A stretch of 36,713 nt of DNA, taken from a virus. A program made the position numbers and the translations under genes. The notes beneath the pieces are model-generated. The model saw only the letters and a list, made by a program, of their open reading frames with translations. It searched no databases and was not told where the DNA came from. The stretch's first letter is position 1; the number at the start of each line of letters is the position of its first letter. Of the stretch, positions 2,243-34,853 are shown piece after piece. The stretch covers positions 1 through 36,713 of the IMG/VR virus record IMGVR_UViG_3300033153_002448; one strand, 5' to 3'.

Positions 2243-5200
2243 CTAAACTCCCAATCTTTTAAGTAAGATATCTAATCTCTCGCCTGTTCCTAATGTAACA
2301 CTCATTGCTCTAGTCTTATGATTATAATTTGTTTTTGATACAAATGATATAGCTGAAAGCCTGTCACCACTCATTCCTTCTATACCAATATCAAAATCCA
2401 TAATACGAATTAAGTCTCCTGCTTTAATTTTCCACACAGGTGTTGGTACTCCATACCTAGTATACGCCTCACCAACAATATTTAATGTTGACGAATAAGT
2501 AGGGTTTACCTTATGTTCCATTATAAGTTCTTCAACAACATCAGCTATATCAGAATTGCCTTGTCCAATAGAAACAACATCTTGTCTCAAACCATATTTC
2601 TCAATACTATTTCTATCTTTAGAGCCTAACGTGTAGGAATTACCAGAAAGGTTTGGGTCATTATACTCAATCCACACTTGGTTTATAATATCCTTTGCAC
2701 TAATGTTCATCTTCAATGGTTGATTATCCTGTATATTGTTAATTGAAATCTCCCAGTCAGGCTCATCAATTGTAATGTCAGGAACTCTTTTTAGTTCTAA
2801 TATTCTTCTGTCATACATAACATAGAAAAAATATCTTCTTACGTGTGTAATATAATTTTCTGTATCTAGGTATCCAAACTTTTTAGATTCATCCAAAGCA
2901 CTTTTAATTTTATCTTTTCTTGTAAATACAAACGGACCAATTGGCATCCTGTCTAGTCTCTCTATGCGTGAGTAGTCATCTTGCCAGTATGGATTAAGGT
3001 CTGTCATAAATCTAGCTATATCATAAGCAGTAGAGCCTGTCTCTACAGCATCTATTGAGATAACACAACTTGAGCCACCGCCACCAGTTACAGCACTAGT
3101 ACCAGTTGAGTACCCATAACCGTAAGAATGTATAAGAACTTCTTCAACTTCTCCAGCACTTCCTACCCTATCTACCAGAACCTGTGCACTACTTCCACCT
3201 GTTGTGAGTGTAAGTATTTCATCAAGGGCATACCCAGTTCCTGCTGTATCAACACTTACAGTTACTATTCCACCAGACAGTTGCCCAGAAAAATACATTG
3301 GACCAGCTGCGATTTTATCTCCCTTATCGTAGTAGCCCTCTGTTGTAATTTGTATATTTTCTCCAGATATAATTGGTTTAGTGATAGAACCCTCATATAC
3401 CCTATCACCATATGTGTCATAAATAACTACGTGTTTATCTATCCAGTAGTTTATTGATATGTTATTATTATATGGTATAGAAAATTTAGAAGATGTATAG
3501 CCACCCTCTACATCTGTTTGAATTGTAACATCATTTCTAAGATTATTAACAATTAAATTATCTTCAACCACACCAACTTCTACGTCTAGGGTCATAGTCA
3601 TGTTGGCTGTACCTGCTCCATCCTCAAATAAGAAATGTAAAGAGTTTCCTGAGTTTGTTGGTACTAACCTAACTGGTGGCATTATGCCATCAACTGTTAC
3701 GTCACCCCTAAAACTAGATGTATATTCTTGTACGTATGGGGCTATCTTTCTACTATCATCAATAAGCTTATCCAAGATAAAGAATGGGACCGGTCCACAA
3801 TTTATATATCTAAATCCATTTCCAATTGGAATAAACTTAATGAAGTCAAGGTCTAATGTATACTCTATAATTGTATCAACACTATCATACACATCATCTG
3901 GTTTAATCTGAACTTGCAATATTACAGTAACATCTGGTGCACTATTTGTAGAACCAGATGGTGGCATCATTATTGAACCAAAGTCAAATAATGCATCGGT
4001 CTGTGCATTAGGTGTCTTCCAATCTGTCTTATCCATTTCAATAAAACTACTATCTTCTTCTGTTCTGTACCCAATCTTTACTCTATAATTAATACTTGTG
4101 TTCCACGCACTTCCAGTAGATGCTTCTCTGCCAACCACACGACATCTTTGATTTATAGTAGACACGTAATGTCTGTCCAAAGTCCACTCTACCAAATCCT
4201 GTGTACCTTGACCAAAAACGGTAATCTCCATGTAACTACTTCCAAGGTCGTCTGATGTAGAAGCGGTATCAGTTTCGGACACATTAGCAATAGCATCAAT
4301 ATCAAAAGTAGCTATGCCGTTATTAATAGAAACATTTGTATCAGATGCAGTATACCCACTTCCTGCGTCTGTAATTTCCCACGTTACTATAGCTCCCGTA
4401 TCCGATACTGAAAGTATTCTTGCTTTGGCGTTTGCATCACCATCACCCGTTAGTGTAAATATTTGGTTTACAACATAGCCAGTGCCATTAGTATTGATTG
4501 ACATTGAATCAATCAAACCAGTACGCATACTTGCTGTCGTACAATGAGACAGCCCACTATCCGCATCTAGGTCATATAGTGTTTGAACTGTAACTGCTGT
4601 TGTAGCTACATGTGCTGCTGGAGTGGATGAGTTATATCCCCTTACCACTGTCCATGCGCCAGCTTCTATTGCTATAATCTCTAGTTCCTCAGATTCAACA
4701 TCAACTGCAAACGGAACTAAAAGTTTCCCTGTATAGTCTTCGTCTACTGTAATTTCTGTTTCACTGTCATCAATTCCTACTGTCAAATTTGTTTCTAGTG
4801 CGTGAGTTCCTGTGCCTATGTATATTTTTTGTGTACCGCTAGAGTACTTACCTACAAATTCCAATATAGTTTCTGTTGTAATATCTCCAGCTATGTCTGT
4901 AATAGATACCGAAGCACCATTATCAACTGTTGTATCAACAACCCTTGCTACATCAATTTCGTTTTCGTAAGATGCGTAGTCTGTAAAAAATGGTGCAGTT
5001 TCTAAAGAAAGTTTAAAGTCATGAAGAACGTAAGTATCGCCCTCTTTCCAGTGAACTCCTTCCATACTAAACATTTGTTGTGGAATAACTATCTCACCAC
5101 CAATGATTTTCAAATAGCTTGTACTACTATCCTGTGTTTGTAGTATAAGATTTACCTCACCACCAGTGTTAGCTTCTTGAATTAGTTTAGAAACTGTATT

Positions 5201-5440
5201 AACATTGCTCATAAGTGTTGCGTATGAAGAACCATACACCGAGAAAGTAAGAGACACTGCTCTGTTTTGGTAATCAACACTGGAGTATTTAGTTCCGTGA
5301 GAGCCAACCAAAGGGGCAGATGCTGTCTTCTTGCTTTTAGTAGATGATAAATTGAGACCACCCTCTGTAAGGCTGTAACTACCGTCTAACAGAAAATCTA
5401 CCTCAGTTTTTCCATTTGAAATTTTTATAGTAAATGTCAT
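2243..5440 (-). CDS. Tail hub / distal tail protein with inserted decoration domains (1065 aa)
   Basis: A large protein directly after the tape measure gene, where siphophages keep distal tail (Dit) and hub proteins. Residues 1-165 resemble a Dit-like start (SLTFSVYGSSYATLMSNVNT, then SLETAPFFTDYA). Residues 215-285 match a domain seen in many virion proteins (IDDSETEITVDE...VESEELEIIAIE...WTVVRGYNSSTPAAH). Residues about 310-385 and 722-798 are Gly-rich GTGY/GSGY modules like those in the tail-tube paralogs. The C-terminal third (810-1065), containing LNPYWQDDYSRIERLD and ending VTLGTGERLDILLKRLGV, looks like a baseplate-hub domain. The start codon overlaps the tape measure stop (TAATG at 5438-5442), which suggests translational coupling. 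The structural role is inferred from order and architecture; I see no enzymatic motif. Confidence 0.75.
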   Translation of the reverse strand: MTFTIKISNGKTEVDFLLDGSYSLTEGGLNLSSTKSKKTASAPLVGSHGTKYSSVDYQNRAVSLTFSVYGSSYATLMSNVNTVSKLIQEANTGGEVNLILQTQDSSTSYLKIIGGEIVIPQQMFSMEGVHWKEGDTYVLHDFKLSLETAPFFTDYASYENEIDVARVVDTTVDNGASVSITDIAGDITTETILEFVGKYSSGTQKIYIGTGTHALETNLTVGIDDSETEITVDEDYTGKLLVPFAVDVESEELEIIAIEAGAWTVVRGYNSSTPAAHVATTAVTVQTLYDLDADSGLSHCTTASMRTGLIDSMSINTNGTGYVVNQIFTLTGDGDANAKARILSVSDTGAIVTWEITDAGSGYTASDTNVSINNGIATFDIDAIANVSETDTASTSDDLGSSYMEITVFGQGTQDLVEWTLDRHYVSTINQRCRVVGREASTGSAWNTSINYRVKIGYRTEEDSSFIEMDKTDWKTPNAQTDALFDFGSIMMPPSGSTNSAPDVTVILQVQIKPDDVYDSVDTIIEYTLDLDFIKFIPIGNGFRYINCGPVPFFILDKLIDDSRKIAPYVQEYTSSFRGDVTVDGIMPPVRLVPTNSGNSLHFLFEDGAGTANMTMTLDVEVGVVEDNLIVNNLRNDVTIQTDVEGGYTSSKFSIPYNNNISINYWIDKHVVIYDTYGDRVYEGSITKPIISGENIQITTEGYYDKGDKIAAGPMYFSGQLSGGIVTVSVDTAGTGYALDEILTLTTGGSSAQVLVDRVGSAGEVEEVLIHSYGYGYSTGTSAVTGGGGSSCVISIDAVETGSTAYDIARFMTDLNPYWQDDYSRIERLDRMPIGPFVFTRKDKIKSALDESKKFGYLDTENYITHVRRYFFYVMYDRRILELKRVPDITIDEPDWEISINNIQDNQPLKMNISAKDIINQVWIEYNDPNLSGNSYTLGSKDRNSIEKYGLRQDVVSIGQGNSDIADVVEELIMEHKVNPTYSSTLNIVGEAYTRYGVPTPVWKIKAGDLIRIMDFDIGIEGMSGDRLSAISFVSKTNYNHKTRAMSVTLGTGERLDILLKRLGV

Positions 5441-8400
5441 TACACCACCTCTTCTGCAATTCTGTACATTATTGTATCTACTAGCGTATCTATGTCACTG
5501 TCGTCACGAACAACAGGGTTGTTTATTGTTATGTTCCAACTTCCAGAGCCTGCACCAACGCCAGCACTAACATCACGCATCATTTTCTCGGTCAGTGAGT
5601 GGGAAGTAATTTTACCAGCCACTGGTGCAGAGAATAGCTCTCTACCAGCTTCTCCAATCAAACCGAAAGCTCCTGCGTGTGGTCTACCACCACCCTGCCA
5701 ACTGTCTACATCAGGGAAATTTACATGAATATACGGTAAGCCCATAGTTTCGTCAAGGTTACTAACATCGAGCATATTATTATAAACATCAATAAGCTTC
5801 TGTAGTGTATCAAATATTCCCCTTGCGAAGTTTTTAATTGCACTCTTTCCTTTAGCAAATAAGTTTAGGTTCTCCAGTGCTACACCAAATCCAGCAAATA
5901 AAGTAGGTAATTTTATTAGTAAGAACTCATCCATTTTAGGATAGAAAGTTCCAAACAACCAAGTTATAAATTTATCAAACGGTCCTGTATCAACCTCAGG
6001 CAAAGTTATAGACTTCATCACTTTTCCACCACCTTCCCCACCCTCAGCCCCTAATCCTAAATCGCCACCAGCACCAAATCCTACTCCTAATGGATTTTTA
6101 AGGAATTCAGTAACAGGAAGGAACTTTGCTGCCATAGTTACTAGCCAAGCTCCTATCGCTGAGTCAACATCACCTAAATCTTTAAGATTACTAAATATAC
6201 TTATTATCTGACCAACTATACTAAACTCGAAAAGAGTACCAGCTACTTCAATAATAGTATTAATGCCATCAATAAACGCCAACAGCCCATCAAGTAGCAC
6301 AGTGAGCTTACCAAGCATAGTGTCTTCTCCTGACACAGAATCTCCCAGTAGGAAGTCTGCAAATTTCTCTGCTAAAATACCAAGTTGTTCTAGTATATCT
6401 GGAACTCTATTTACCAACAAATCTGCGAACTGCCCTATGTTGTACCCCACAGAAGCTAGTGGGTTACTGCTTGAGTCTCCCGACATATCAAACCCAGCCT
6501 CAATAGGAACACCTATATTATTAATTCCTGGCATATCTTCGCCATTATACCCAGCACCAAAAGCTGACAATATATCCCCAACACCTTTCTTTAAATCTGC
6601 ACCAATTGGTGACATCTCATCTGCCCAAAATTTAAATTTAGGAATTAGGTCATCGAATAGCATCTCAGCATCAGACAGTGGGGTAAATGTTTCGTAGCTA
6701 AAATCTTCTCCCATTGTTCCCATCATTGGAATTTCGTGAAAATCTGTAAACCCTGCTCTAACTGCTTCTTCCAACCCTGCTCTAATATCTTCATCAAGGT
6801 CAGGGAAACTAGTGTCTACCCAATCATTGAAAGCAATCATTCCGTCTTGCATGTTCATTACACTAGACAAAGAATCTGCTATCTTCTTACCAATAGCTTG
6901 TGAATCAATCTCAAACATTTCAGGGTCAATAAGAGAATCTCCATATGCATCAGCAATATCGTCCATCCAACTGACAGCAGCCTCAGCCGCACCAGAAGCA
7001 GCCATAATATTCTTTTCAAAATCTTCCCACATAGCCCCTAAGTCTGCATCTGGATTCATAAGAGCTGCCCAAAAAATCTTAGCTACTCCTATTAGCGTAA
7101 ATAAAACTATTTTAAATTTAGTCGCTGCTACGTTCAGGTCAACAAATCTTAGTTGAGCCTCTTTTAGCTTATCTGATATACCAGTAATTGAAGTTGTGTC
7201 AAGATTAAACCCAGAACTTTCTCCCAAATCGCTATCACCGCTACCGCCACTAGTAGCAGCTTGCATTGTTAGTAGTTCTTTCCACAAATCTGATTGTTCT
7301 TGAAGAGCGTCCAACAAAGCACCCTGTAACTCAAGCTGTGCTTGGAACATCTCCTCTCTTTTCTTAAGAAGTTTTTCTTCTTCCGACAAAGCACTAAGAC
7401 TTTGGTCTCTCTCATAAGCCGCAGAAGCAATACTCTCAACCATATCTTCTGCTGTATCGCCGGATAAACGAATAGTTTGTACTTGGTCTTCATACATATC
7501 ATTTGTTGCTGTGCGCTCTTCCTCAATTGCAGCAAGTCTCAACTGAACTCTTTCTAGGTCAAGGTGCGCTTTGATTAATTTCTTAATCTCATCTTTACTA
7601 GTACCGAATCCCTCAACCAAGCTATCAAGATAGCTATCTGTAATCTTTACGCCTCTCTTGTTATCTTTTAGAAGCTTACTGAATATTTCTTTAAATTTAA
7701 TAATACCCTTTAGTACTTTCTTTCTTTCGTCTTCATCATCTTCGCCAGATGGTGTGAAGTGCAAAGAACCTAACATACTCTCTACCCTACCTGCAACATC
7801 AGACAAGATACCAAAATCTGCCTGCCCAAATCCCTTTAGGAAGGTGTTCATAAGAACAGCACCCCACATATCAATACCAGACAGAGGTCCTTGCTCTGGT
7901 GGTGAGTGTGCCTCTAAGAAGCTAGCAATTGTTTGTGCTACTGCTGAGATAGCTCCTATAACAGCCTTAGAGCCAGCAACAATTCCACCAGCAAACGTAT
8001 CCATTATAGTCTTGCCCCAATCTCCTACGTTCTTTGACAACTTTGATAACATGTCGTCTACCTTACCAGCAATACCTTGAATACCTATTGTATAATTTTC
8101 AAACAACTTGAATAACACACCACCAACTAACATTAGTATTGGATTAAGTGTAAGTAATCCAACAACAAGTTTACCAAATAAACCAACCAGTGGCATAATA
8201 AACGAGCCTAATCTCATTAGACCATTTGCTATCATTGTCACACCAAATATTGTTTGTGACAAGAACCAAGACACCGGACCATATAGAGCTGCGAAAGATA
8301 TGAACTGTCCTATTGTTTTTTTAATTCCAGGACCTATTGTTTTATATAATTGTGAGAACGCAAGAGCACCAGCAGATGCTACATCTATAAGTTTATTCAT

Positions 8401-10152
8401 CAAAGGAATAATATCATCTCCAACAACTATGCTAAGATTTTCAAATCCATTCTTTAACATTTGAATATTAACTGTTGTGCTGTCCAAGTACTTATTATAC
8501 TCTGACATCAACGAACCGCCGTGCAACCAAGCTTCGTTAGCACTTTCCATGATATCGTTGTATCTTGATAATTCCATTTGTCCACCTTGGAAAGCCTTTT
8601 TCGCTTTCACAAGGTTTTGCAACATCCTACCACTGCGTACTCCCAACAACTCAGTAGAAGCACCAACAGTATTAAGTGCATCTGTATCTTTGGCTAGTAC
8701 TGTAACCAAGTCATCAACTGTTCCATAGAAATCTTGATGAAGTCTTGTTAGGAATTGTGTTGTAGATGCGAATGTTTCACCCTTTATATTAAGTTCATCA
8801 ATAGCATCGGCGTTATTCAGTAAGTGTGCAGGAAGTCTACGCATAGCAGTTCCAACCTCAGAAGCTGTCATACCCATTTCTCTACCAATAGTTACCCAAC
8901 CAGCTATCTGACCCATATTCATTTCTACAGACATACCACTATCATCAACAGCACCAGTAAGACCTGAGAAAGTAGAGCCAATATCTTTCAACATTTCTAC
9001 AATCTCACTAGCTGTACTTCCTGCTGTGTTTTCAAGGGCATTAATTACTTCTGCTGTTCTGTCAATAAAGAATATTGTATCTTCTAGAGCCTCACCAGAA
9101 AAGCTTAGTGAGTGACCAAACGCATTGGCGATAGAACCTAAATCAGTAGCAATGCTATCAGCTGCTATATCAGTAGCTGCCGCAACAACATCCATAATTG
9201 CAACCATTTGCAACATACCGTTCTTATCTCTTAGTCCCATTTGACCAAGCTGTTCTGTAAACTTAGCTAATTGCTCCATACTTGATGCAGACACAACACC
9301 TAATCTTGCTAACTCATCACGGTACTTGCCAATAGAACCAGCTTCTTCAAACAAATCACCAGTAACTTTAGCAACACGAACCAAAGCATCTTCCATCTTA
9401 AGTGCTGCTTCTGTAGCTTCTTTTAGGAACAGTGTTATTGGTGCTGACACAAAGAATGTCATTGAACGTGCAACAGTTAGAACACCTTGTGCCATAAGTC
9501 TGAAAGCACCAACAGAATTCTTTAATCCACCCCACAGTTGTTTAATACCTTGACTAAAATCTTTAAGCTGTTTGCTCCACTTTTCAAATATCCACTTCGC
9601 TGCTTTTGCTGCCATAGCAACACCAGCAATGACAGCACCAAGAACTGGCAAAGCTACACCAAGAGCTGCACTACTAGCCACAGCCTCAGTCAAAATTCCA
9701 GAGAACTTACTAATATCTATTCCTGCACCAGACAACTTAGTTGAGAAGTCTCCTACCTGCTTAGCAGCTCCAGACTCTCCTGCCGCATCACCGTATTTGG
9801 CAACCTCTTGCGCAGCTTCCTTGTATTCTTCCTGCAATTTGTTAAGATTATTTAATGTAGCTCCTGTAGGCTGTGTCATTACCTTAACACGCTCTACCTC
9901 TTTGCCATATTTTTGTTGAGCTACTTTAAGCCTCTCAATAGCTTGTTGGGCTTGTGGGTTATTTATAACTTTTTTAAATTCACTAGCATATCTTGTTGCT
10001 TTCTTAAAAGATTCATCTATACCTTTAAATCCTTTAGGTGGCTTAGATAGAACTGTATTTATCTTTTGAATTTTTTTAGTTAACTCATCAACTCCAGTTG
10101 TTTTAGCAACTGTATCTATAATTAACTTAATTGTTGTGGCACGTTTCCCCAT
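5440..10152 (-). CDS. Tail tape measure protein (1570 aa)
   Basis: By far the longest gene, lying between the chaperone pair and the tail hub as in most siphophages. The first 130 residues are helical and coiled-coil-like. Residues about 240-600 resemble the TP901-type tape measure core (WVTIGREMGMTASEVGTAMR and LGVRSGRMLQNLVKAKKAF). Hydrophobic stretches follow at about 150-200 and 620-700. A charged coiled coil (ERVQLRLAAIEEERTA) lies in the middle. Near the C-terminus, GAFGLIGEAGRELFSAPVAG is a motif frequent in tape measure proteins. The protein sets tail length and is expected to leave the tube during DNA injection. At the usual ruler of about 1.5 angstrom per residue, the tail would be roughly 235 nm, an inference only. 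Confidence 0.93.
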   Translation of the reverse strand: MGKRATTIKLIIDTVAKTTGVDELTKKIQKINTVLSKPPKGFKGIDESFKKATRYASEFKKVINNPQAQQAIERLKVAQQKYGKEVERVKVMTQPTGATLNNLNKLQEEYKEAAQEVAKYGDAAGESGAAKQVGDFSTKLSGAGIDISKFSGILTEAVASSAALGVALPVLGAVIAGVAMAAKAAKWIFEKWSKQLKDFSQGIKQLWGGLKNSVGAFRLMAQGVLTVARSMTFFVSAPITLFLKEATEAALKMEDALVRVAKVTGDLFEEAGSIGKYRDELARLGVVSASSMEQLAKFTEQLGQMGLRDKNGMLQMVAIMDVVAAATDIAADSIATDLGSIANAFGHSLSFSGEALEDTIFFIDRTAEVINALENTAGSTASEIVEMLKDIGSTFSGLTGAVDDSGMSVEMNMGQIAGWVTIGREMGMTASEVGTAMRRLPAHLLNNADAIDELNIKGETFASTTQFLTRLHQDFYGTVDDLVTVLAKDTDALNTVGASTELLGVRSGRMLQNLVKAKKAFQGGQMELSRYNDIMESANEAWLHGGSLMSEYNKYLDSTTVNIQMLKNGFENLSIVVGDDIIPLMNKLIDVASAGALAFSQLYKTIGPGIKKTIGQFISFAALYGPVSWFLSQTIFGVTMIANGLMRLGSFIMPLVGLFGKLVVGLLTLNPILMLVGGVLFKLFENYTIGIQGIAGKVDDMLSKLSKNVGDWGKTIMDTFAGGIVAGSKAVIGAISAVAQTIASFLEAHSPPEQGPLSGIDMWGAVLMNTFLKGFGQADFGILSDVAGRVESMLGSLHFTPSGEDDEDERKKVLKGIIKFKEIFSKLLKDNKRGVKITDSYLDSLVEGFGTSKDEIKKLIKAHLDLERVQLRLAAIEEERTATNDMYEDQVQTIRLSGDTAEDMVESIASAAYERDQSLSALSEEEKLLKKREEMFQAQLELQGALLDALQEQSDLWKELLTMQAATSGGSGDSDLGESSGFNLDTTSITGISDKLKEAQLRFVDLNVAATKFKIVLFTLIGVAKIFWAALMNPDADLGAMWEDFEKNIMAASGAAEAAVSWMDDIADAYGDSLIDPEMFEIDSQAIGKKIADSLSSVMNMQDGMIAFNDWVDTSFPDLDEDIRAGLEEAVRAGFTDFHEIPMMGTMGEDFSYETFTPLSDAEMLFDDLIPKFKFWADEMSPIGADLKKGVGDILSAFGAGYNGEDMPGINNIGVPIEAGFDMSGDSSSNPLASVGYNIGQFADLLVNRVPDILEQLGILAEKFADFLLGDSVSGEDTMLGKLTVLLDGLLAFIDGINTIIEVAGTLFEFSIVGQIISIFSNLKDLGDVDSAIGAWLVTMAAKFLPVTEFLKNPLGVGFGAGGDLGLGAEGGEGGGKVMKSITLPEVDTGPFDKFITWLFGTFYPKMDEFLLIKLPTLFAGFGVALENLNLFAKGKSAIKNFARGIFDTLQKLIDVYNNMLDVSNLDETMGLPYIHVNFPDVDSWQGGGRPHAGAFGLIGEAGRELFSAPVAGKITSHSLTEKMMRDVSAGVGAGSGSWNITINNPVVRDDSDIDTLVDTIMYRIAEEVV

Positions 10153-10153
10153 A

Positions 10154-10579
10154 TTATCCCTTTACAATCTTAGTATCTTTGTTTGCTACAGACCTAGCCA
10201 AGCCTGCCTCTCCAGCTCCGTACACAATTGCTATCTCACCAGCACCAATACCATATTTCTTTTTGTATGCCTTTCTACGTTCCTCATGTGCATTTTTCCA
10301 AGGAGTAAACGCAGACATAAGTGAAGTTCTAAATTCTTTTTCTGCTTTATTCATAGCCTTACCACCAGCTTTAGACCAAGGAGTTCTTGCAAATGGAATG
10401 ATGTTCATTTGAATAGTCCAATTCTGTAACTCATCCTCTTTGCAAAATCTATATTGTTTATTTAACCAACCCATTCCTTCTTCCTCTACCATATCGAGTA
10501 TGTCTTCATCTTTCCATCCGTAAACTTTACGAATAGTATGCATGACATACCCTGCCCTACCATAAAGGTAATGCTTTAG
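10154..10579 (-). CDS. Tail assembly chaperone, -1 frameshift extension (gpT-like part)
   Basis: This has a plausible ATG at 10541-10543, but its frame stays open upstream to the TTTTTTC slippery site that ends the preceding gene, giving LKHYLYGRAGYVMHTIRKVY across the junction. It is therefore best read as the downstream part of a fusion made by -1 ribosomal frameshifting, like lambda gpGT. The fusion would have 287 residues (146 + 141). It is rich in Lys, Glu and Trp, has no membrane segment, and ends 1 bp before the tape measure start. In lambda, gpG and gpGT bind the tape measure protein and recruit tail-tube subunits. Independent initiation at 10543 cannot be excluded. Confidence 0.8.
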   Translation of the reverse strand, partial: LKHYLYGRAGYVMHTIRKVYGWKDEDILDMVEEEGMGWLNKQYRFCKEDELQNWTIQMNIIPFARTPWSKAGGKAMNKAEKEFRTSLMSAFTPWKNAHEERRKAYKKKYGIGAGEIAIVYGAGEAGLARSVANKDTKIVKG

Positions 10580-11016
10580 AAAAAACGATTTAGTACTTTA
10601 GCATATTCCTCTTGTGATAACAAAGCTTGAGCACCGTCAACCAACGTACCGATACTAAAGAACTTTTCAGCCTCTTTATCTGAACAACCAATAACAACTA
10701 CAAATAAATCTAGCAAAGCTTCCTGAGAAGAAACCTTTCCAATAGCTGCTATCAACGCCCATGTACTACCAAGAGCAGAAGCTGGGTTAGTATCATCTGT
10801 TACAAGTACACCCGCCAACCTATCGCCATAATCTCCAATCCAATTTAACAAATCAGAAACCTGTTTAGCCTGTGCTACACCAGTCTTAATTAGATTATAT
10901 TCTTTATCTCCTACCATCACTGTCTCAGGCAAAGACTCTTCTTCTTCAACTAGTTCCACTACTTCCTCTAGTTCTTCTTCAATTATTTCTTCTTCTTTCT
11001 TAATATCTTCTGCCAT
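10576..11016 (-). CDS. Tail assembly chaperone (gpG-like), 146 aa
   Basis: Lies between the major tail protein and the tape measure gene, the standard place for the shorter tail chaperone. Residues 1-35 are extremely acidic (EEEIIEEELEEVVELVEEEE). The rest is a compact helical domain (VAQAKQVSDLLNWIGDYGDR; LLDLFVVVIGCSDKEAEKFF). The gene ends CGT TTT TTC TAA, which places a slippery heptamer directly before the stop. A terminator-like hairpin lies between this gene and the third major tail protein gene, so it is probably transcribed at a lower level than the tube protein. No sequence motif is diagnostic by itself; the call rests on position plus frameshift architecture. Confidence 0.82.
   Translation of the reverse strand: MAEDIKKEEEIIEEELEEVVELVEEEESLPETVMVGDKEYNLIKTGVAQAKQVSDLLNWIGDYGDRLAGVLVTDDTNPASALGSTWALIAAIGKVSSQEALLDLFVVVIGCSDKEAEKFFSIGTLVDGAQALLSQEEYAKVLNRFF
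10579..10585 (-). other. -1 programmed frameshift slippery heptamer TTTTTTC
   Basis: On the minus strand, codons CGT TTT TTC TAA place T TTT TTC in the zero frame, matching the X XXY YYZ pattern. Slipping back one base gives an open frame running 141 codons to the stop at 10154. The stop codon follows the slippery site at once. Confidence 0.85.
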
Positions 11017-11032: not shown

Positions 11033-11083
11033 ATATAAAAACACCCCACAACAACTCCATCGTGCTTGGAGCTACTGTAGGGT
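11033..11083 (-). terminator. Rho-independent terminator after the third major tail protein gene
   Basis: On the minus strand, a 16-bp stem including several G-U pairs (arms 11068-11083 and 11043-11058, 9-nt loop) is followed by a T-rich run at 11033-11042. It lies between the tail protein and chaperone genes and probably lowers expression of the downstream tail genes relative to the tube subunit. Confidence 0.8.
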
Positions 11084-11106
11084 ATTAAATTTATTACTTG
11101 TTTAGT

Positions 11107-11637
11107 CTACGGGAAAGTTGCTGGTTTTTCTGTACGATACAGTTCTCCGTCTCCAGAGAAATCCACATCTAATGTTACATAATCTTCATTAGGTGTTGAC
11201 ATATCAATTGAACCCAAAATTATTTTCCCTAACCAATATTGTGCTGGTTCTGTGTCATCTGTAGGAGCGTCGTTAGTTTTACTGTTGATGAACATTACCC
11301 ACAAGCTTACGCCTGCTTTCATTTCAGTAAAGATTGTATCATTAGTTGTGTCAAGGTATCCTGACATGCTTCCTGACCAATCCATATAAAGTCTAGCCTT
11401 GCCTACCCAAGCGTCTGCTGGGTCTTCAACGAATACTTTATGTTCTGCAATATCTACTGAAATACTTATTGAAAACTCATTTCTTTCTGGAAACTGAACC
11501 CAGTTATAATTCGTTGGGTAATCTGTATCCCATACTAGAGTATCTGTACTCCATTTAGGTAGTTCGCAGGTTTCTCCCGATGCGTCTGTATCTGAAACAA
11601 ACAAAATATCGGCATCAATTCCTATAATAGCTGCCAT
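11107..11637 (-). CDS. Major tail (tube) protein, undecorated paralog C (176 aa)
   Basis: The last and shortest of three tandem paralogs. All begin MAAIIGIDADILFV and share the block FPERNEFSIS...DTTND and GSIDMSTPNEDYVTLDVDFSG. This copy has only a short loop where the other two carry an 80-residue Gly-rich insert. Position just before the chaperones and tape measure gene, and size, fit a tail tube subunit. It is the only paralog with a late-type promoter directly upstream (11725-11739) and a terminator directly downstream, so it can be transcribed as a single gene. I infer it is the main tube subunit. Many codons differ from the other copies while the protein is nearly unchanged. Confidence 0.85.
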   Translation of the reverse strand: MAAIIGIDADILFVSDTDASGETCELPKWSTDTLVWDTDYPTNYNWVQFPERNEFSISISVDIAEHKVFVEDPADAWVGKARLYMDWSGSMSGYLDTTNDTIFTEMKAGVSLWVMFINSKTNDAPTDDTEPAQYWLGKIILGSIDMSTPNEDYVTLDVDFSGDGELYRTEKPATFP

Positions 11638-11676
11638 GTTTTTATCTCCTGTTAATAGTTTGTCCTATAAACCCTC

Positions 11677-11712
11677 CTAAATGATTACAACCTCTACACA
11701 GTTCTCAGTCAT
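11677..11712 (-). CDS. Possible 11-residue leader peptide before the major tail protein
   Basis: In the leader between the 11725-11739 promoter element and the tail protein, ATG at 11710-11712 opens MTENCVEVVII and stops at 11677-11679. The stop overlaps a TTTAGGAGG sequence that could be a ribosome binding site. A weak purine-rich stretch precedes the ATG. It may be a translated leader or chance. Confidence 0.2.
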   Translation of the reverse strand: MTENCVEVVII

Positions 11713-11724
11713 TTTTCTTCTCTC

Positions 11725-11739
11725 ATTAACTATAATCAT
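11725..11739 (-). promoter_or_regulatory. Phage-specific late-type promoter element, site 1
   Basis: The minus strand reads ATGATTATAGTTAAT, identical to three other sites in the window except for one A/T position. No -35-like hexamer is shared upstream. It lies 88 bp before the start of tail protein paralog C. Twelve bases of it, with flank (11733-11744), are repeated inverted at 11676-11687. Confidence 0.7.
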
Positions 11740-11760
11740 TTAGGTATACTAGTAGTGAAA

Positions 11761-12546
11761 CTAGTAAGGCATTTCGGAACGGTACAATTGTCCACTACCA
11801 GAGAAGTCTACGTCAAGTGTAACGTAGTCCTCATTAGGAGTTGACATGTCGATTGAGCCTAGAATAATCTGCCCAAGCCAATACTGCGCTGGCGCAAAAT
11901 CATCTGTAGGTGCATCATTTGTTTTGCTGTTTACAAACATTGCCCAAATATCTTCTCCTGCTTTCATCTCTGTAAAAATTTCATCATTAGTTGTGTCTAG
12001 GTAACCACTCATACTACCAGACCAGTCCATGTAAAGTCTAGCTTTACCAACCCATGCGTCAGCGGGGTCTTCTACAAATACTTTATGCTCGGCAATATCA
12101 ACTGAGATAGAAATTGAAAATTCATTTCTCTCAGGAAATAATGTCCAAGAATAAGTACTATCATTTACTAACACTGTCCACTCTGTGTCGTCTGTACTCC
12201 AAGGTGGTAGAACCAAAGAGTTAATTGTTAAAGTATCAATTGTAAGACCTGTACCACCTGCTGGTGATACTGTTGTTGCCATTGCATCATCCCCTATTAC
12301 ATATCCAGAACCAACTTCAATTCTGGTAATACTATCAGGAACGCCAGCAGTTGCTAACATTGAAAAAGTAGCTGCTACGTCTTGGCTTGCTCCGCCAGTT
12401 ACGGTGATTACGTCACCAGTATCATTATAGCCAGAACCTGCCACAGCAATACCAGCTGTTGCAATACCACCTTGTAGTGTCTCTGCATCTACTGTACTTT
12501 TCTTTACGAACAGGATGTCAGCATCTATACCGATTATTGCTGCCAT
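11761..12546 (-). CDS. Major tail protein paralog B with inserted Gly-rich domain (261 aa)
   Basis: Same fold signature as paralogs A and C (MAAIIGIDADILFV at the start; FPERNEFSIS block; GSIDMSTPNEDYVTLDVDFSG near the end). Residues about 25-105 are an insert absent from C: GGIATAGIAVAGSGYNDTGD, then VTGGASQDVAATF, then VGSGYVIGDDAMATT. The first 39 bases are nearly identical to those of paralog A, whereas the rest has many silent differences. It sits 28 bp after paralog A, with no promoter seen between them, so it probably depends on transcription from upstream. I infer a tail-tube subunit carrying a surface domain; decorated tube subunits are known from lambda gpV and SPP1 gp17.1*. Confidence 0.8.
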   Translation of the reverse strand: MAAIIGIDADILFVKKSTVDAETLQGGIATAGIAVAGSGYNDTGDVITVTGGASQDVAATFSMLATAGVPDSITRIEVGSGYVIGDDAMATTVSPAGGTGLTIDTLTINSLVLPPWSTDDTEWTVLVNDSTYSWTLFPERNEFSISISVDIAEHKVFVEDPADAWVGKARLYMDWSGSMSGYLDTTNDEIFTEMKAGEDIWAMFVNSKTNDAPTDDFAPAQYWLGQIILGSIDMSTPNEDYVTLDVDFSGSGQLYRSEMPY

Positions 12547-12574
12547 ATTATTTACTCCTATTTACTAAGTTTTA

Positions 12575-13372
12575 TTACGTCTGTACGCCAGAGCCATAAG
12601 GCATCTCTGAGCGATACAGTTGACCACTTCCAGAAAAGTCAACATCCAATGTCACATAGTCTTCGTTAGGGGTTGACATATCAATAGAACCTAATATAAC
12701 TTTTCCTAACCAATACTGTGTTGGTGTTTCGTCGTCGTTTGGTGCATCATTTGTTTTACTATTAATGAAGATTACCCATAGGTCATCTCCAGATTTCATG
12801 CTTACAAAGATTGTATCATTAGTTGTGTCCAAGTAACCAGACATTGAGCCTGACCAGTCCATATACAACCTTGCTTTTCCTACCCACGCATCTGCTGGGT
12901 CTTCCACGAATACTTTGTGTTCCGCAATGTCCACCGAGATGGAAATACTAAACTCATTTCTTTCAGGGAATTGTACCCAAGAATACGAAGCATCATCTAC
13001 TAGTACTGTCCACTCTGTATCATTTGTGCTCCAGATTGGTAAGCATAGTGGGCTGATTGTATCAACATCAATTGTAAATGCATCATCACCACTACCTGTA
13101 ATCTTTGTGGTAGCAATACCTGTATCTGATGTTTGATACCCAGACCCTGGATTTGTAATTACAAATGACGTAACTGCGCCAGTTCCTGTGCATGTTAAAA
13201 TTGCTGGATAATCTACTGCTGCTCCACCAGTTACACTAACGGTATCACCGTCTGCGTAGCTAGCACCACCTACTGCAATTGAAGCAGTAGCAATTCCGCC
13301 TTTTGTAATAGCACTTATTGTATCGTTTGCAACGAATAGGATGTCAGCATCTATACCGATTATTGCTGCCAT
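12575..13372 (-). CDS. Major tail protein paralog A with inserted Gly-rich domain (265 aa)
   Basis: First of the three tandem tail protein genes. It has the conserved start MAAIIGIDADILFV, an insert at residues about 24-107 (GGIATASIAVGGASYADGD; VTGGAAVDYPAIL; NPGSGYQTSDTG), and the common core. It ends with a short extra tail, YGSGVQT. Its ribosome binding site AGGAG lies inside the end of the preceding gene, which it overlaps by 13 bp, suggesting coupling. Its insert is clearly homologous to that of paralog B, so the domain was probably acquired before A and B separated, or was copied between them. Confidence 0.8.
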   Translation of the reverse strand: MAAIIGIDADILFVANDTISAITKGGIATASIAVGGASYADGDTVSVTGGAAVDYPAILTCTGTGAVTSFVITNPGSGYQTSDTGIATTKITGSGDDAFTIDVDTISPLCLPIWSTNDTEWTVLVDDASYSWVQFPERNEFSISISVDIAEHKVFVEDPADAWVGKARLYMDWSGSMSGYLDTTNDTIFVSMKSGDDLWVIFINSKTNDAPNDDETPTQYWLGKVILGSIDMSTPNEDYVTLDVDFSGSGQLYRSEMPYGSGVQT

Positions 13373-15247: not shown

Positions 15248-16561
15248 TTACGCAGTCTTTACATGTCTCAGAACAGAGAATAGTAAAGGATTCACAATTT
15301 TCATGCATAGATATGATTTCAGCATAAAGTCATATGAATCTTTTGTTCTTGCTAGAGGTACGTAACTTACCATGCCCTCTTTTTGTGCGCCCATGCTATC
15401 AACTAGACCAAGGTATGAAGCACCATTTCTGTTGCTTGAGTTGGCTAGAACAATAGCTTGTTCGCCTGTTTCCAGACATTGTACGTTAGTGTTCACAACT
15501 GAAAAATCAGCATAAGTATATGTTTCAACAGAACCATTCACTGTTCCTGCTGAATCATATGTAAATGCTGGAATAATGTCAATCAGGCTGTGTCCGCCGC
15601 CACCAACTGGCTCAACGAAAAGCATGTATGCGTATGCGTCAGCATCTGCTGTCCATGTTACGTCTACGTCATAGTCTGCTGTTGGAGTAACTGTTGCTTC
15701 CGCAACACCTACTTGCTCACCAGCATATGTAACTGACGAAACTCTGAAACCATACTCGGAGTTTGCTGCACCAGATGTAACATCAGAACCAGCAGCTGCA
15801 CCCAGCCCTGTTACACCAGAGTCGCTTGATTTCATCATATTTGTTTTAAAGATTGGAAGACCGTCATATGTTCCCATTGTGATTTTGCCGTCAAACAACT
15901 GTGCCGAACTGATTGGCATTTGAACAATTGTTTGTAGACCGTCAACAACAGTTTTCATGTTGTTAGCCATTAGGAAGAATTTTGGGTCGTTCTCTGTACC
16001 ACGATAATCAATTAAGTCTATCATGCTGTCTAGCATAGCTAGAGTAATCTTTGCACCAGCAGCGTCTAAAATGTTGCCGGGAGCATCACTGTAAATTGCG
16101 TTTAGGATACCTGAGTACATGTATTCGTCACCAGAAAAATCTCTATCGTCAGCAACACCAAACAGTGTTGACCATTCGATAATATCTGATAGACCCTGTA
16201 CGGACAGGTCAATCTCTAGTGCTAAGGCATCTAGGTCAGCAGCTGTAACAGCTTGGTTGAATCCAGTTACCTCACCCCAGTTACGCAGGATTTTTAATTG
16301 CACAGTCTCACGGCTGTAAGTACCCTTTCTTGCGTTAGCTGGAGTGCTTTCGCCCTCGAACCAACCCTTAGGATGGGATGTAATCTTACGATATTCGTGT
16401 ACTTTGCCTTTTGCTTGTTCAACATCGAACAGACTTAGAAGCGGTTGTTTCTCAACTAGTTCGTCGTGTAGAACTGGGTCAAGGTCTTCTGAACGAAGGT
16501 CCGCAGTATCCGCTGATGTCAAAGCCTTTCTCAACATAGTTGGTTCATCAAACAGTTTCAT
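15248..16561 (-). CDS. Major capsid protein, HK97 fold, with an inserted domain (437 aa)
   Basis: It directly follows the prohead protease gene, as in HK97-type head modules. Size and overall pattern fit the HK97 fold: a helical N-arm (LRKALTSADTADLRSEDLDP), an E-loop-like region (SHPKGWFEGESTPANARKGT), a spine-helix-like region (DALALEIDLSVQGLSDIIEW), and P-domain strands (DPKFFLMANNMKTVVDGLQ; YDGLPIFKTNMM). Residues about 250-350 look like an Ig/fibronectin-III-like insert (FRVSSVTYAGEQVGVAEATV; DVTWTADADAYAYMLFVEP), probably a surface domain on the shell. The N-arm may be trimmed by the protease; no cleavage site is evident to me. The gene has its own downstream terminator. Confidence 0.85.
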   Translation of the reverse strand: MKLFDEPTMLRKALTSADTADLRSEDLDPVLHDELVEKQPLLSLFDVEQAKGKVHEYRKITSHPKGWFEGESTPANARKGTYSRETVQLKILRNWGEVTGFNQAVTAADLDALALEIDLSVQGLSDIIEWSTLFGVADDRDFSGDEYMYSGILNAIYSDAPGNILDAAGAKITLAMLDSMIDLIDYRGTENDPKFFLMANNMKTVVDGLQTIVQMPISSAQLFDGKITMGTYDGLPIFKTNMMKSSDSGVTGLGAAAGSDVTSGAANSEYGFRVSSVTYAGEQVGVAEATVTPTADYDVDVTWTADADAYAYMLFVEPVGGGGHSLIDIIPAFTYDSAGTVNGSVETYTYADFSVVNTNVQCLETGEQAIVLANSSNRNGASYLGLVDSMGAQKEGMVSYVPLARTKDSYDFMLKSYLCMKIVNPLLFSVLRHVKTA

Positions 16562-16579: not shown

Positions 16580-17959
16580 TTATAATTCCAAATTTTCTAA
16601 TACTTTTCTGATACGGGTCTCTGAGTCAGAATATTTCTTACGGTAAGTTATGGTTTTTTCACCAACAACTTCCTCTTCATCTTCTGAGATGCCAATATCC
16701 ATATTAGCTTTTCTATTTGAAGGTGTTGTAAGCTCTGTTTCAGCTAAGTCTTTTTCTTCTTGCTCAGTCACGGCTAGAGTTTCAACGTCCGCCTCTGCGG
16801 TTGCTGCCTCTACACCCTCTGTGCTTTCGCCCAAAAGTTTTTCTAACATAGCTTCAAGTCTTGCTAATCTATCAATAACATCTTCTTCTTCATTAACTTT
16901 AATCGAAAGTTCCGCCTCTTCGTTACTCTCAGGAAGCATTTCTTCCTCTTCCTCTTCCTCTTCTTCGGAATCTTCGATATGAAGTTCCTCTTCTGGAAGC
17001 TCAAGTAACTCTTCTTCGTCTACTTCCTCAACAATATCAAGCTCAACATCCGCTTCAACTTCTACTTCTAGGTCAGCTTCAACTTCTGCTTCTAGCTCTT
17101 CAACTGCTTCTTCTGGTTCAGGGTCAGCCTCAACTTCCACTGCTTCCTCTTCGGACTCAGCTTCTGCTTCCTCTTCGTCTTCTTCCTCTTCGTCTTCTTC
17201 TGGAACAATACCTTCATCTGGCATAGCTTGTTCTTTGTCCCAATCTCTTCCTTCTTTTTCAAGAACTTCTGTCTCTGCTCCCTCTTCAAGAATTTCCTTT
17301 TCTTCTTCAATTTGTACAGCTTCTTTTAGCATATCAATTTCCTTTTGTTCTACTGTAAGTGATTTCAAAAGAGGAACTAATTCTTCTGTTGATGTTGCAG
17401 AGCGAAGCACGTTCTTAAGTTCTTTCGAGAATGATTTAATATCACCCTCAACTTCCCCTAAAGCAGCTTCGATAACACTTGCATTTGGGTGAGCAGGGTG
17501 GTCAACCACACTAATCTCAGCCAGCATATACTCTTTAATCTTCCACCCGCCATCATCTAGCCATTCGCAAGATGCGGTGTCAAACGGGTTAAAAAGAATA
17601 CCAACAGAAAGCCCTTTAAGTACTCCCTCTTGTACTTGATGGATAGTGTCTTTATCCACCAATTTTACTACTACTTCATTCCATTCTAGGTCAGCACCAT
17701 CTTCTTCGCCGATGTGTTTTGCAAGTCCAACGGCTTTTGGTTGATGCATATATCTAATGTTGCGCCACTCACGATAGTCAGGTAGAGCACGGGTTGTGCC
17801 TTCTCTTGTAATGATGTCTCCATGACTGTCAGGAGTGCTATCAGTAAACCTAGCTTTTATTTCATAAGTACTTGGAATCTCATCATTAGCTACTGACTTC
17901 TTTAGTTCAGCCACAGCACCAGAATCAAAATCAAAATACTTGGTCTTGTATTTCAACAT
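16580..17959 (-). CDS. Prohead protease (S78-like) with acidic scaffold-like C-terminal half (459 aa)
   Basis: Residues 1-175 look like the HK97-type prohead protease: FTDSTPDSHGDIITREG, His in YMHQP (residue 72), Ser in LKGLSVGI (residue 118), and AEISVVDHPAHPNA (residues 147-160, D153/H154), the usual catalytic surroundings. Residues about 210-365 are almost entirely acidic, with long Glu runs. Then DVIDRLARLEAMLEKLLG forms a short coiled coil. A final 80 residues end near 459. I infer a fused protease and scaffold, in which the acidic part and coiled coil act as an internal scaffold and are degraded on maturation. No separate scaffold gene is seen between portal and capsid, which supports this. 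Confidence 0.85.
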   Translation of the reverse strand: MLKYKTKYFDFDSGAVAELKKSVANDEIPSTYEIKARFTDSTPDSHGDIITREGTTRALPDYREWRNIRYMHQPKAVGLAKHIGEEDGADLEWNEVVVKLVDKDTIHQVQEGVLKGLSVGILFNPFDTASCEWLDDGGWKIKEYMLAEISVVDHPAHPNASVIEAALGEVEGDIKSFSKELKNVLRSATSTEELVPLLKSLTVEQKEIDMLKEAVQIEEEKEILEEGAETEVLEKEGRDWDKEQAMPDEGIVPEEDEEEEDEEEAEAESEEEAVEVEADPEPEEAVEELEAEVEADLEVEVEADVELDIVEEVDEEELLELPEEELHIEDSEEEEEEEEEMLPESNEEAELSIKVNEEEDVIDRLARLEAMLEKLLGESTEGVEAATAEADVETLAVTEQEEKDLAETELTTPSNRKANMDIGISEDEEEVVGEKTITYRKKYSDSETRIRKVLENLEL

Positions 17960-18585: not shown

Positions 18586-20247
18586 TTAAACATCTCCAAC
18601 GTAAATATCTCTTCTTAGTTTTTCCAACTTACTAATGAATTCCTCTTTTGTCTCAGAATTAGACACGATAGTTTGCACTATCTTTATTATGTCAGGGTCG
18701 CCAGTATTCCAGAAGAAGTCAACATACTCTTCCCTTTTAGAATCCCAACGATTAATCATAAATCTTTGAAATGCACTTAACTCATCAATAACTAGAGAAC
18801 GCCTGTCCCCTCTTGGTGGGTCTTGGTCATCTATAGTTGGTTCTCCTGTATCGGATGGCTTATCAGGTCTATCTTCCCTGCCCTCTGGCGGAGAGCCTTG
18901 TTCTTCTTTCTGATTTTCTGGTGGGTCTGTATACACGTCTCCATCTCCATCGAGTCTCGGACCGTGCCCAAGTTCTAAACGAATTTCGTTTGCGTTGAAT
19001 ATCCCGTTCTGGCGATAACGCATGTGTACTGTAGCCCTTTCCACTGAATCAAGAAAGTCCAATCTTCCGAATTTGAATACCCAATCTTTAATATTAAACA
19101 GTCTGTTGTGTACTTGTTTTGTGAATCCATCTTCAACATACTTAAACAACGGAATCATTGTTGTTTCAAAAAATTCTCTTCTATCTTCTTTTTCTAACCC
19201 TTCCTCAGTAAGACCGAGCTTTCTTGCGCTAGTACCAATAACAGTAAAGATTTCTTCTCTGGTTTGTTTACGGGCTTCTAAATAAGGAATATCTTCTGGA
19301 AAGGATTCAAGTCTTTTAACTTGAATTTCACCTGAAACAACTAACGGAACTTTACCTATATTGTCTGGACCTTCATACTGGTCTTCAATGTAATCAGCTA
19401 ACTCGTCGAACTCGTCGTCACCTATTCCTTCTGGTACTTCCCAGATTGCTGGTGGCATCCTGCTTTTTTGCATGTAGCTGAGTGCTGCACTTTGTAGATA
19501 AATATCCAATGGTAGAGCATATTGTGACAGAGATTCTACCAACATATCTCCGTATGGTCTCCCTGAAATATCAGGGTTCACTATGAAAACAACTTCATCA
19601 GATGCGTACTCTGCTATCACATCTTTAGTCTCTAATGAAATTTGCACAAAGGCAGGATTTTTAAACTTACCTTCGTTGTCTACGTTTGGGTACACAAAAC
19701 CATATATGAACTCAAACCCCAGTGGCTTTCCACTTTCATCTTTTAGTACATGAAACGCTGCTTGACCAAAGAATCTTAAATAAATTAAGGCTGCTGAAAT
19801 TTTAGAAGGAGTACCATAAAAATCTTTTATGTTGTCCCATGCTGATGACGAATAATTATAAAAGTTATCTAACTTCTTTTTATTATCCTCTTTTGCATTT
19901 GTAAAAAAGTCATCACGCTTATCTATTGACCACCCAGCACCCACACCAGAGTTTGCTAACCTATCAATAGATGCCTTAAAGAATCCATCAACCTTTAGGG
20001 TATCCATTATATCATTGAATAAAATAAATCTGTGCAAAACATCGTTGTTTTCAATGACAGCTAGCAATTTTCCAGCTTTACTAGATAGACTACTCTCTGA
20101 TACATCTTTGTTAACTGTACCTTTGGTCTTCCTCTTGTGGAAAGAACTCACCTTAACTTTTTTTATAGATTTATCTAATGTAATAAATTGCATAGTAGGT
20201 AATTTCCTCCAATTCTCTTTACTCGTCTCTTCTCTAACGCCAAACAC
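18586..20247 (-). CDS. Portal protein (553 aa)
   Basis: The size and sequence features fit a phage portal: GRPYGDMLVESLSQYALPLD and YLQSAALSYMQKSRMPPAIW, followed by PLVVSGEIQVKRLESFPEDI and ARKQTREEIFTVIGTSARKL, the usual 'region before the crown' pattern. The C-terminus is Pro/Gly/Asp-rich, then helical (QRFMINRWDSKREEYVDFFW). The start is GTG at 20245-20247, preceded by AAGGA with a 5-base gap. That ribosome binding site lies directly after a late-type promoter element (20259-20273). The portal forms the dodecameric channel at the capsid vertex for DNA packaging and exit. Confidence 0.85.
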   Translation of the reverse strand: MFGVREETSKENWRKLPTMQFITLDKSIKKVKVSSFHKRKTKGTVNKDVSESSLSSKAGKLLAVIENNDVLHRFILFNDIMDTLKVDGFFKASIDRLANSGVGAGWSIDKRDDFFTNAKEDNKKKLDNFYNYSSSAWDNIKDFYGTPSKISAALIYLRFFGQAAFHVLKDESGKPLGFEFIYGFVYPNVDNEGKFKNPAFVQISLETKDVIAEYASDEVVFIVNPDISGRPYGDMLVESLSQYALPLDIYLQSAALSYMQKSRMPPAIWEVPEGIGDDEFDELADYIEDQYEGPDNIGKVPLVVSGEIQVKRLESFPEDIPYLEARKQTREEIFTVIGTSARKLGLTEEGLEKEDRREFFETTMIPLFKYVEDGFTKQVHNRLFNIKDWVFKFGRLDFLDSVERATVHMRYRQNGIFNANEIRLELGHGPRLDGDGDVYTDPPENQKEEQGSPPEGREDRPDKPSDTGEPTIDDQDPPRGDRRSLVIDELSAFQRFMINRWDSKREEYVDFFWNTGDPDIIKIVQTIVSNSETKEEFISKLEKLRRDIYVGDV

Positions 20248-20258
20248 TCTATTCCTTC

Positions 20259-20273
20259 ATTTACTATAATCAT
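20259..20273 (-). promoter_or_regulatory. Phage-specific late-type promoter element, site 2
   Basis: The minus strand reads ATGATTATAGTAAAT, followed by GAAGGAATAGA and the GTG start of the portal gene. It would drive the head gene operon. No consensus -35 box is seen at the right distance. Confidence 0.75.
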
Positions 20274-20317
20274 TCTTATTAAGATTTAGTTACTCTAGAC
20301 CCAGTTTCTCCCACTTA

Positions 20318-24905: not shown

Positions 24906-26555
24906 TTATCTTATACGGACACTTCTCCTATTTTTATTTTTATATTTCTTTGAACCTTTCGAGACCTCTTTGCCTCTCAAGACCTTCACACGAACTTTAT
25001 TGTTACCGCCCTCTATGCTTCCGATAACTGCGTATAATAAAGCGTGCGCTAAGTGGTCTGGTCCGACATGTCTCCAAGTAACTTTTTGGTCTACTCCTAA
25101 TGGGGTTGTTGTTTCTTCAACATCCCTTCTCATGTTACCTATGTGAGTAAACAATAGCGTTGCCCATTCAGGAAGTTCTCCATCTTCGGATGAAATGAAT
25201 ATCTCACCCTTCTTAATCATTTCCATAACTAGGTCAAACGCCTGACTTCTTCTAATTGTAACGTGCTCCACACCTTTCTCAACATCTTTTGTAACCTTGA
25301 ATAGACCTTTGATTCTTGTATGGTAATCAGCAAGTTTCAACATACCTTTGCTTTTCTTGGCTATTTGCGTAGCTGTATTTCTATTAGGGTCTGCATCAAG
25401 TACACCACCAGAAAACTTACGTTGTTTCAGTATTCTCTCTAGCTCCTCAAACCCATCTTCTTCAATCTCATCTGCATAGACAACTTCTATATCGTCACCC
25501 TTTACAGCAACAATAACAAGACTTATTGTATTGGCTTGGTCTATACCAATGTATAATCTACCTTCATCAATGCCACCCTCATGAACTGCGTTATCCATCA
25601 ACCAATCATAATTAACATCTGTGTTCCCAGAAGAGTAGGGTATTCCTATTCTTTTCCTATAGAACTCTTGTACGGTAGCATTAGGGTCTACGCTATTTAG
25701 ATACAACTCCATTGGGTCATAGAACATCATCTGATTGATGTGGTATCCTTTGTGGAAGTTCACCAAGTCTGGTATCTGCGCCACCCACTCACCACTAAGA
25801 AAGTCCTGAGTTGTCATTGGTCCTTCACACCTGTGGCAGATGTAGTTTGCTGTATCTGGGTTAAGTTTCATACCAGTGATTCTCATATTCTTTTTCCAAT
25901 CAAGAACCTGCTGGTGTCCGCAACGAGGGCACTTAACCATCCACTCATACTGACACGATTTAGTGTACAGCGCATCTACCCCATAACCTTTGATAGTTGG
26001 TGTAGAATAGTTTAGTGTAAGCTTCCAGTCGCTATCGTCCATACGGTTTTGCATAGTAGCAACGTGGTCTGGATTTGATAAGTCAACCTCATCGTTCATA
26101 ACAACATCAGCACTAAGCATCCTAGGCTCTGTTGTCATAGCCATCATGTACATGAAAGCTGAACCTATCTGCTTCATCTTTACAGCATCAACACTTCCCT
26201 TCCTAGATTGCAAGTAAGGACTGTATGTAATTATTGGATTTAGTTTTGCTCTTACCAAGTCAATAACATCTTGGTCTCTTGGCAACGAATAGGCTATGTT
26301 AAGATTAAACTCTGTCATCATATGCATAGCCTTAACCAGACCAGCAGTAGTCAGACCACTTTGGGTTGACTTGATGATTGTTGTTTTCCTTGACCTATCT
26401 TCTCCATTCTGAATTTTATATGGATTCAGTGTGTCATAAATAGCAGGAAGCCAAGGTCTATATTCCCACTTAACTTTGCTAGGTAAAGTAATGTAAGTCA
26501 TACCATACGAAAACGGGTCACGGGTAGCCTGCTCTTTTAGTTCCTTATCAATCAT
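24906..26555 (-). CDS. Terminase large subunit, lambda gpA-like (549 aa)
   Basis: The ATPase half has a deviant Walker A (KSTQSGLTTA, residues 62-71) and a Walker B (VVMNDEVD, acidic pair 155-156). A zinc ribbon follows (CPRC near residue 209 and CHRC near 240), as in the lambda gpA family. The nuclease half has IGIDQAN (Asp 339), LDADPN (Asp 387/389) and DHLAHALLYA near the end. The C-terminus is strongly basic. Together with the small subunit it cuts concatemeric DNA and drives it into the prohead. ATG at 26555 overlaps the previous stop (ATGA) and is preferred over an in-frame TTG at 26570. Confidence 0.9.
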   Translation of the reverse strand: MIDKELKEQATRDPFSYGMTYITLPSKVKWEYRPWLPAIYDTLNPYKIQNGEDRSRKTTIIKSTQSGLTTAGLVKAMHMMTEFNLNIAYSLPRDQDVIDLVRAKLNPIITYSPYLQSRKGSVDAVKMKQIGSAFMYMMAMTTEPRMLSADVVMNDEVDLSNPDHVATMQNRMDDSDWKLTLNYSTPTIKGYGVDALYTKSCQYEWMVKCPRCGHQQVLDWKKNMRITGMKLNPDTANYICHRCEGPMTTQDFLSGEWVAQIPDLVNFHKGYHINQMMFYDPMELYLNSVDPNATVQEFYRKRIGIPYSSGNTDVNYDWLMDNAVHEGGIDEGRLYIGIDQANTISLVIVAVKGDDIEVVYADEIEEDGFEELERILKQRKFSGGVLDADPNRNTATQIAKKSKGMLKLADYHTRIKGLFKVTKDVEKGVEHVTIRRSQAFDLVMEMIKKGEIFISSEDGELPEWATLLFTHIGNMRRDVEETTTPLGVDQKVTWRHVGPDHLAHALLYAVIGSIEGGNNKVRVKVLRGKEVSKGSKKYKNKNRRSVRIR

Positions 26556-27922: not shown

Positions 27923-27940
27923 ATCCCCCTCTCTTTCCGT

Positions 27941-34824: not shown

Positions 34825-34853
34825 TATTTCTTAGTAACAAAACAACCCATTGC

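Follow-up and report, generated by a model that had tools for sequence, protein, structure and literature searches.

Three adjacent genes in a phage genome from IMG/VR encode tail tube proteins with one common core, two of them decorated with a glycine-rich module close to the N-terminus and the third plain. The copies are old and intact and match one another at the protein level, as would be expected of co-assembling subunits. The explanation we favor, at a probability of roughly two in three, is one mixed tube built mostly from plain and a few decorated subunits, an outcome known from phage SPP1 that would have been reached here via gene duplication. The three paralogues, named W1, W2 and W3 in the order of their transcription, would assemble into the same non-contractile tail tube. 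The plain W3 would be the main subunit, with an additional promoter and a terminator of its own. W1 and W2 would be made in smaller amounts because they are predicted to depend on the transcript of the long structural operon alone, and they would enter the tube as minor subunits carrying the module of about 90 residues on the outside, giving rise to a sparsely decorated tail.

Three tube genes and a glycine-rich module

The DNA analysed, referred to as the window, is the linear IMG/VR record IMGVR_UViG_3300033153_002448 from position 1 to 36,713, that is 36,713 nucleotides. Its minus strand encodes in order a terminase, a ribonucleotide reductase, a portal, a protease-like gene, the major capsid protein and small connector and tail genes, followed by the three tube genes, two chaperone ORFs, the tape measure gene and tail-tip proteins. 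The tube genes are found in the gene order of their family, namely connector or tail completion genes, tube, frameshifted chaperones and tape measure.

24906-26570, minus strand: terminase
18586-20247, minus strand: portal
16580-17959, minus strand: protease-like gene
15248-16561, minus strand: major capsid protein
12575..13372, minus strand: W1, decorated tail tube protein of 265 aa, transcribed first, start overlapping the upstream gene (phrog_1407)
11761..12546, minus strand: W2, decorated tail tube protein of 261 aa, transcribed second (phrog_1407)
11107..11637, minus strand: W3, plain tail tube protein of 176 aa, transcribed last, probable major subunit (phrog_1407)
10576..11016, minus strand: probable tail assembly chaperone, G-like (from its position and a -1 slippery heptamer at its end)
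10154..10543, minus strand: probable tail assembly chaperone, T-like extension (-1 frame from the G-like gene)
5440..10152, minus strand: tape measure protein of 1570 aa (phrog_28, 1e-22)
2243..5440 (ORF 2246-5494), minus strand: tail protein 3' of the tape measure gene with two copies of the insert module (insert profile)

The slippery heptamer T_TTT_TTC at 10579-10585 (minus strand) lies at the end of the G-like chaperone gene and opens the -1 frame into the T-like ORF. This slip site, the usual -1 type for chaperones, is kept in the window and in two related phages, A (L007) and B (L010). As no tail sheath was recognised among the scanned proteins between capsid and tape measure, the tail is likely of the siphophage type.

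W1, W2 and W3 are complete, separate ORFs, each with its own start and stop. Their first 14 residues are identical, and their cores are 88-91% identical over 120 residues, including one stretch of 52 residues without any amino-acid difference. Chance is excluded as the origin of three genes with one common tail-tube core. All three proteins match the family phrog_1407, ‘major tail protein’ (W3 with E=1e-7), as do all eight tube copies of the window and phages A and B, the first three phages compared (best E=1e-9). The first-pass annotation had described three adjacent genes with one tube core, and their coordinates, strand, shared core and family matches bear this out. It had also suggested structure prediction as a check. 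The AF2 model of W3 is weak (pLDDT 59), and its PDB matches by Foldseek are almost all solved tube proteins, among them monocin MttP, 80alpha, SPP1 and lambda V, with a best E of 9.5e-4 for this low-confidence query.

The two decorated proteins differ from W3 by their insert, for which an HMM delimits the following regions:

13043..13312, minus strand: Gly-rich module of W1, residues ~21-110
12211..12486, minus strand: Gly-rich module of W2, residues ~21-112

A glycine-rich domain of 80 residues inserted after residue 14-24 had been noted before. Its presence in W1 and W2 and absence from W3 stand, and its dimensions need correction to about 90 residues starting after residue ~20. This N-terminal insert is rich in GGxGY/GSGY-like motifs, and its profile finds two more copies each in ORFs 2-1753 and 2246-5494 (both minus strand; E 3e-6 to 4e-10). 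These four further copies lie in proteins of the tail-tip region, where ORF 2-1753 runs off the window end. In PHROG the insert matches segments of families for head decoration, head closure and the baseplate wedge; Pfam returned no Ig or FN3 family match for it, and the AF2 model of the decorated form reaches a pLDDT of only 51. Because of the tail-tip copies and the matches to head and baseplate families, the insert is a module common to several virion proteins. From this recurrence we infer that it faces outward on the tube, and by analogy it probably engages weakly with the host surface.

Copy number and transcriptional frame in related phages

How common is such a set of tube genes? IMG/VR searches with the tube protein, with the capsid protein and with a wider alignment as starting points yielded, after removal of duplicate loci, 24 distinct phages including the window, and hence 23 further relatives. 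Eighteen of the 23 carry a single plain tube gene of ~138 aa. A decorated and a plain copy form a pair in three others, phages B (L006/L010), C (L027) and E (L031), and two decorated copies together with a plain one occur in the window (W) and in one relative, phage A (L005/L025). The remaining phage F (L035) has two copies, whose N-terminal parts of 63 and 36 residues are devoid of the Gly-rich module. On this 87-kb relative the two tube genes (L035 4983-6042) also come without leader and strong terminator, and phage F thereby counts against the mixed tube. Indistinguishable tube proteins were observed in different IMG/VR samples (L027/L029 and L031/L032), and therefore these phages recur. 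Outside this set, tblastn of W3 against 50,697 annotated phages gave no match and that of W2 a single one that is not significant, no match to the major capsid protein was found in annotated phages, and GTDB species genomes contained no relative.

The first-pass annotation spoke of a gene triplication and proposed to look for it in related genomes. Three copies are indeed present here and the same set of two decorated and one plain copy recurs in phage A, but the term is too specific given relatives with one, two or three copies, of which 18 have the single plain one. The recurrent unit is rather the pair of a decorated and a plain copy. The plain copy always comes last in the decorated phages, namely W, A, B, C and E; the position of the second decorated copy differs between the two phages with three. 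In the module region, W2 corresponds to A1 (support 100/99), and pairing W1 with W2 is rejected (p 7e-5). Among the W genes, W2 is transcribed second, yet its counterpart A1 is the first in phage A (L005); the extra decorated copy was therefore gained or lost separately in both lineages.

Variation in copy number, together with a module sequence that diverges faster than the core, would also fit alternative tubes, in which the decorated copies serve other conditions or hosts or act as a reservoir of surface variants. We consider this very improbable: no switching element was noticed around the tube genes, all copies share a single strand and order, and the plain copy is always retained.

The plain copy is set apart by its flanks, for which these features were annotated:

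11638..11760, minus strand: untranslated leader of W3, 123 nt, the gap between W2 and W3
11040..11086, minus strand: strong intrinsic terminator hairpin 3' of W3 (z -4.8)
11724..11759, minus strand: promoter-like element GTAAC-N15-ATGATTATAGT before W3, with a degenerate -35-like half (TTCAC)
20258..20293, minus strand: another copy of this element, before the portal gene; phage B has one at the same place
27940-27975, minus strand: copy of the promoter-like element near 27.95 kb
34834-34869, plus strand: copy of the promoter-like element at 34.85 kb, ahead of tRNA-Lys

All five decorated phages show a leader of 105-130 nt 5' of the plain copy and a strong hairpin 3' of it (-20 to -30 kcal/mol). 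Among single-copy relatives the leader measures 96-155 nt in 16 of 18 and 53 and 56 nt in the other two, and a hairpin of -17 to -30 follows the tube gene in all 18. For the decorated copies, the 5' gap measures -13 to 42 nt, and the 3' fold is weaker (-2 to -15). Judged from these flanks, it is the plain copy of the five decorated phages that retains the transcriptional setting of a single-copy gene.

The promoter-like element, which can also be given as GTAAC-N15-ATGATTATAGTNAAT, is found four times in the window. Its 9-mer GATTATAGT has four exact copies versus 0.4 expected, a number reached in none of 100 shuffles. Of the two closest relatives, phage B carries the element at the same two structural-gene positions (L010 6253, 13969), before the plain gene and before the portal, and phage A a variant before its plain gene A3 (L007 6878). 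We read it as a putative phage promoter that would add transcription of the plain gene only. A scan for sigma-70 promoters found sites no more frequent than in shuffles. The element is not recognisable before the plain copy of the more distant phage C, and this counts against the mixed tube, as does codon usage: codon adaptation was considered as a sign of higher W3 expression and dismissed, with plain and decorated copies being alike. A role of the leader as conserved RNA structure was likewise rejected, given that it folds in B (z -2.5) and not in W (-0.8) or A (0.6); Rfam had no match near the W3 leader. The leader also contains a perfect 12-bp inverted repeat, CCTAAATGATTA...TAATCATTTAGG, at 11676-11744 (minus strand), which overlaps the promoter-like element; a similar stem is predicted for phage B and none for A.

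Core evolution within and between phages

In each of the six multi-copy phages, the cores cluster with those of their own phage; support for this is good in C, E and F and weaker in W, A and B. Clades of all plain and of all decorated cores are both rejected (p 0.0013 and p 0.0008, respectively), and the cores of the five decorated phages form one clade versus the single-copy relatives. Amino-acid identity of multi-copy cores within a phage is 0.79-0.89; for C, E and F, the closest protein from outside the phage reaches just 0.56-0.67. C1 and C3 share 30 core residues missing from all eight copies of W, A and B, and the opposite pattern, in which plain and decorated types would differ, occurs at 0 sites. 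When the W, A and B copies are divided by genome, this division has the most fixed amino-acid columns of 280 partitions, and for synonymous columns it ranks 180 of 280. In the weak W3 model, the phage-specific sites 71, 72, 79 and 84 map to a long loop before strand 86-96. Known tubes have an inter-ring β2–β3 loop (PMC8718954), and the resemblance is only suggestive; hhalign matched the tube protein neither to lambda V nor to gp24 of Microbacterium phage Count, which precludes a reliable placement of the inter-ring loop.

Can this agreement be attributed to a recent exchange of DNA? Within phages, synonymous codons agree at 0.33-0.51, with 0.38-0.48 expected from independent draws, and only the pair A1-A3 lies slightly above expectation (P 0.02). 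For the W cores, codons of identical residues agree at 0.40-0.49 versus 0.42 expected. Since agreement is at the level of independent draws, recent gene conversion fails to explain the match and can be excluded for the core; an active avoidance of shared codons was rejected too, as agreement does not fall below random expectation. Counterparts across phages keep some codon signal (W3-A3 0.60 versus 0.41, P 1e-4). There are hints of some exchange in the first 42 nt of W1 and W2, which differ by just 2 nt, and in the core of A1, which shares codons with plain-type cores. The match itself could go back to old conversion or to old separate duplications. Either way, with dN/dS at ~0.05-0.08 where measurable, strong purifying selection holds the copies in one phage to one core, as the subunits of a polymer need.

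The same clustering by phage and traces of recombination would be seen if each lineage had undergone its own old duplications, with the module lost or swapped by recombination. The core match would then reflect common descent and be uninformative on co-assembly. This is unlikely, as five phages with cores in one clade share the position of the module and have, downstream of it, a plain copy with a leader of similar kind, and as W2 and A1 are counterparts across phages. Somewhat less remote, though rather unlikely as well, is a position-specific use, in which the decorated paralogues form only the first ring on the tip or the last one under the head-tail joint, and W3 the remainder. The low predicted expression of the decorated copies fits this idea, and tube initiators are named in a paper on an extracellular contractile injection system (PMC8894135). 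It is at odds with the 18 relatives for which one copy suffices, with the presence of two decorated copies with differing inserts in two phages and of one in the others, and with decorated cores that are unspecialised and match the same phage's plain core at nearly all constrained positions. Finally, that the decorated copies lack their own promoter-like element and terminator might suggest dead or dying duplicates, a notion that is hardly tenable: tube copies are intact in all relatives found, including the five decorated phages, with synonymous changes saturated and amino-acid changes few. A pattern of one intact copy next to decayed ones, which had been named as refuting the mixed tube, was looked for among the relatives and is absent from all.

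The first-pass interpretation is partly supported overall. Its proposal of mostly plain and minor decorated subunits now has independent support, from the leader and terminator that only the plain gene possesses, like the single gene of the relatives, and from the close match of the cores inside each phage. A more general statement has to be phrased tentatively. A siphophage lineage may keep two to three tube subunits matched by co-assembly selection alone, with synonymous sites at random and the ratio set via the extra promoter. Though we hold this for possible rather than probable, the plain-to-decorated ratio would then depend on the additional promoter instead of frameshifting, and synonymous drift would also guard the tandem genes from recombinational loss.

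Relation to known tail tubes

One of the closest parallels is SPP1, whose two major tail proteins gp17.1 and gp17.1* derive from one gene by frameshifting and occur at 3:1 in the tube; the FN3 domain of the longer form is dispensable and was proposed to touch the cell wall (PMC8718954). Both systems encode a tube protein in plain and decorated versions, the excess of the plain form being only predicted here. In contrast to SPP1, separate genes are used, there are two different decorated forms, and the module is located near the N-terminus and not in a C-terminal FN3/Ig domain. For making mixed tail tubes, the present genes would do by gene copies what SPP1 does by frameshifting. Built-in decoration is also found in the tube proteins lambda gpV, T5 pb6 and YSD1 (PMC8718954), which likewise combine a tube core with a surface domain; unlike here, they are made from one gene, every subunit is decorated, and the domain is C-terminal and Ig-like.

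That siphophages normally encode one tube protein, as the first-pass annotation assumed, has published exceptions. All 56 Gordonia phages of cluster DJ have two tube genes, 43% identical, one with 51 additional C-terminal residues (PMC12859696), and Microbacterium phages of cluster EL, for example Damascus, have two major tail protein genes (PMC11080557). Phage Count (MH153801) even has three tube paralogues of 294, 215 and 257 aa that are 41-47% identical. These actinobacteriophages resemble our case in having neighbouring tube paralogues, one longer than another. They differ in a C-terminal extra segment, lower identity and another gene between two copies, and the tube proteins of Count belong to phrog_2645, those of the W family to phrog_1407. 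For annotators, this is a warning that several adjacent ‘major tail protein’ genes may all be real.

More than one tube-type protein per tube is also described for contractile injection systems (PMC8894135); different from the tail discussed here, these are contractile, have a specialised initiator and are not known to carry a Gly-rich insert. Outside of phages, duplicated yeast histones are kept alike in a coadapted complex, and according to that study (PMC4700949) paralogues of one complex are closer to each other than to their counterparts in other species, as observed for the tube cores. The mechanism given there is gene conversion, whereas synonymous sites here are without a recent trace of it. 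The tube genes are a clean case for asking about the long-term compatibility of paralogous subunits in one polymer without DNA homogenisation, and the related phages, with one, two or three tube copies, form a natural gradation. Multi-copy tube genes are already known from actinobacteriophages (PMC12859696); new are the different protein family, the N-terminal decoration, the regulatory split between plain and decorated copies, and the matching at the protein level with randomised codons.
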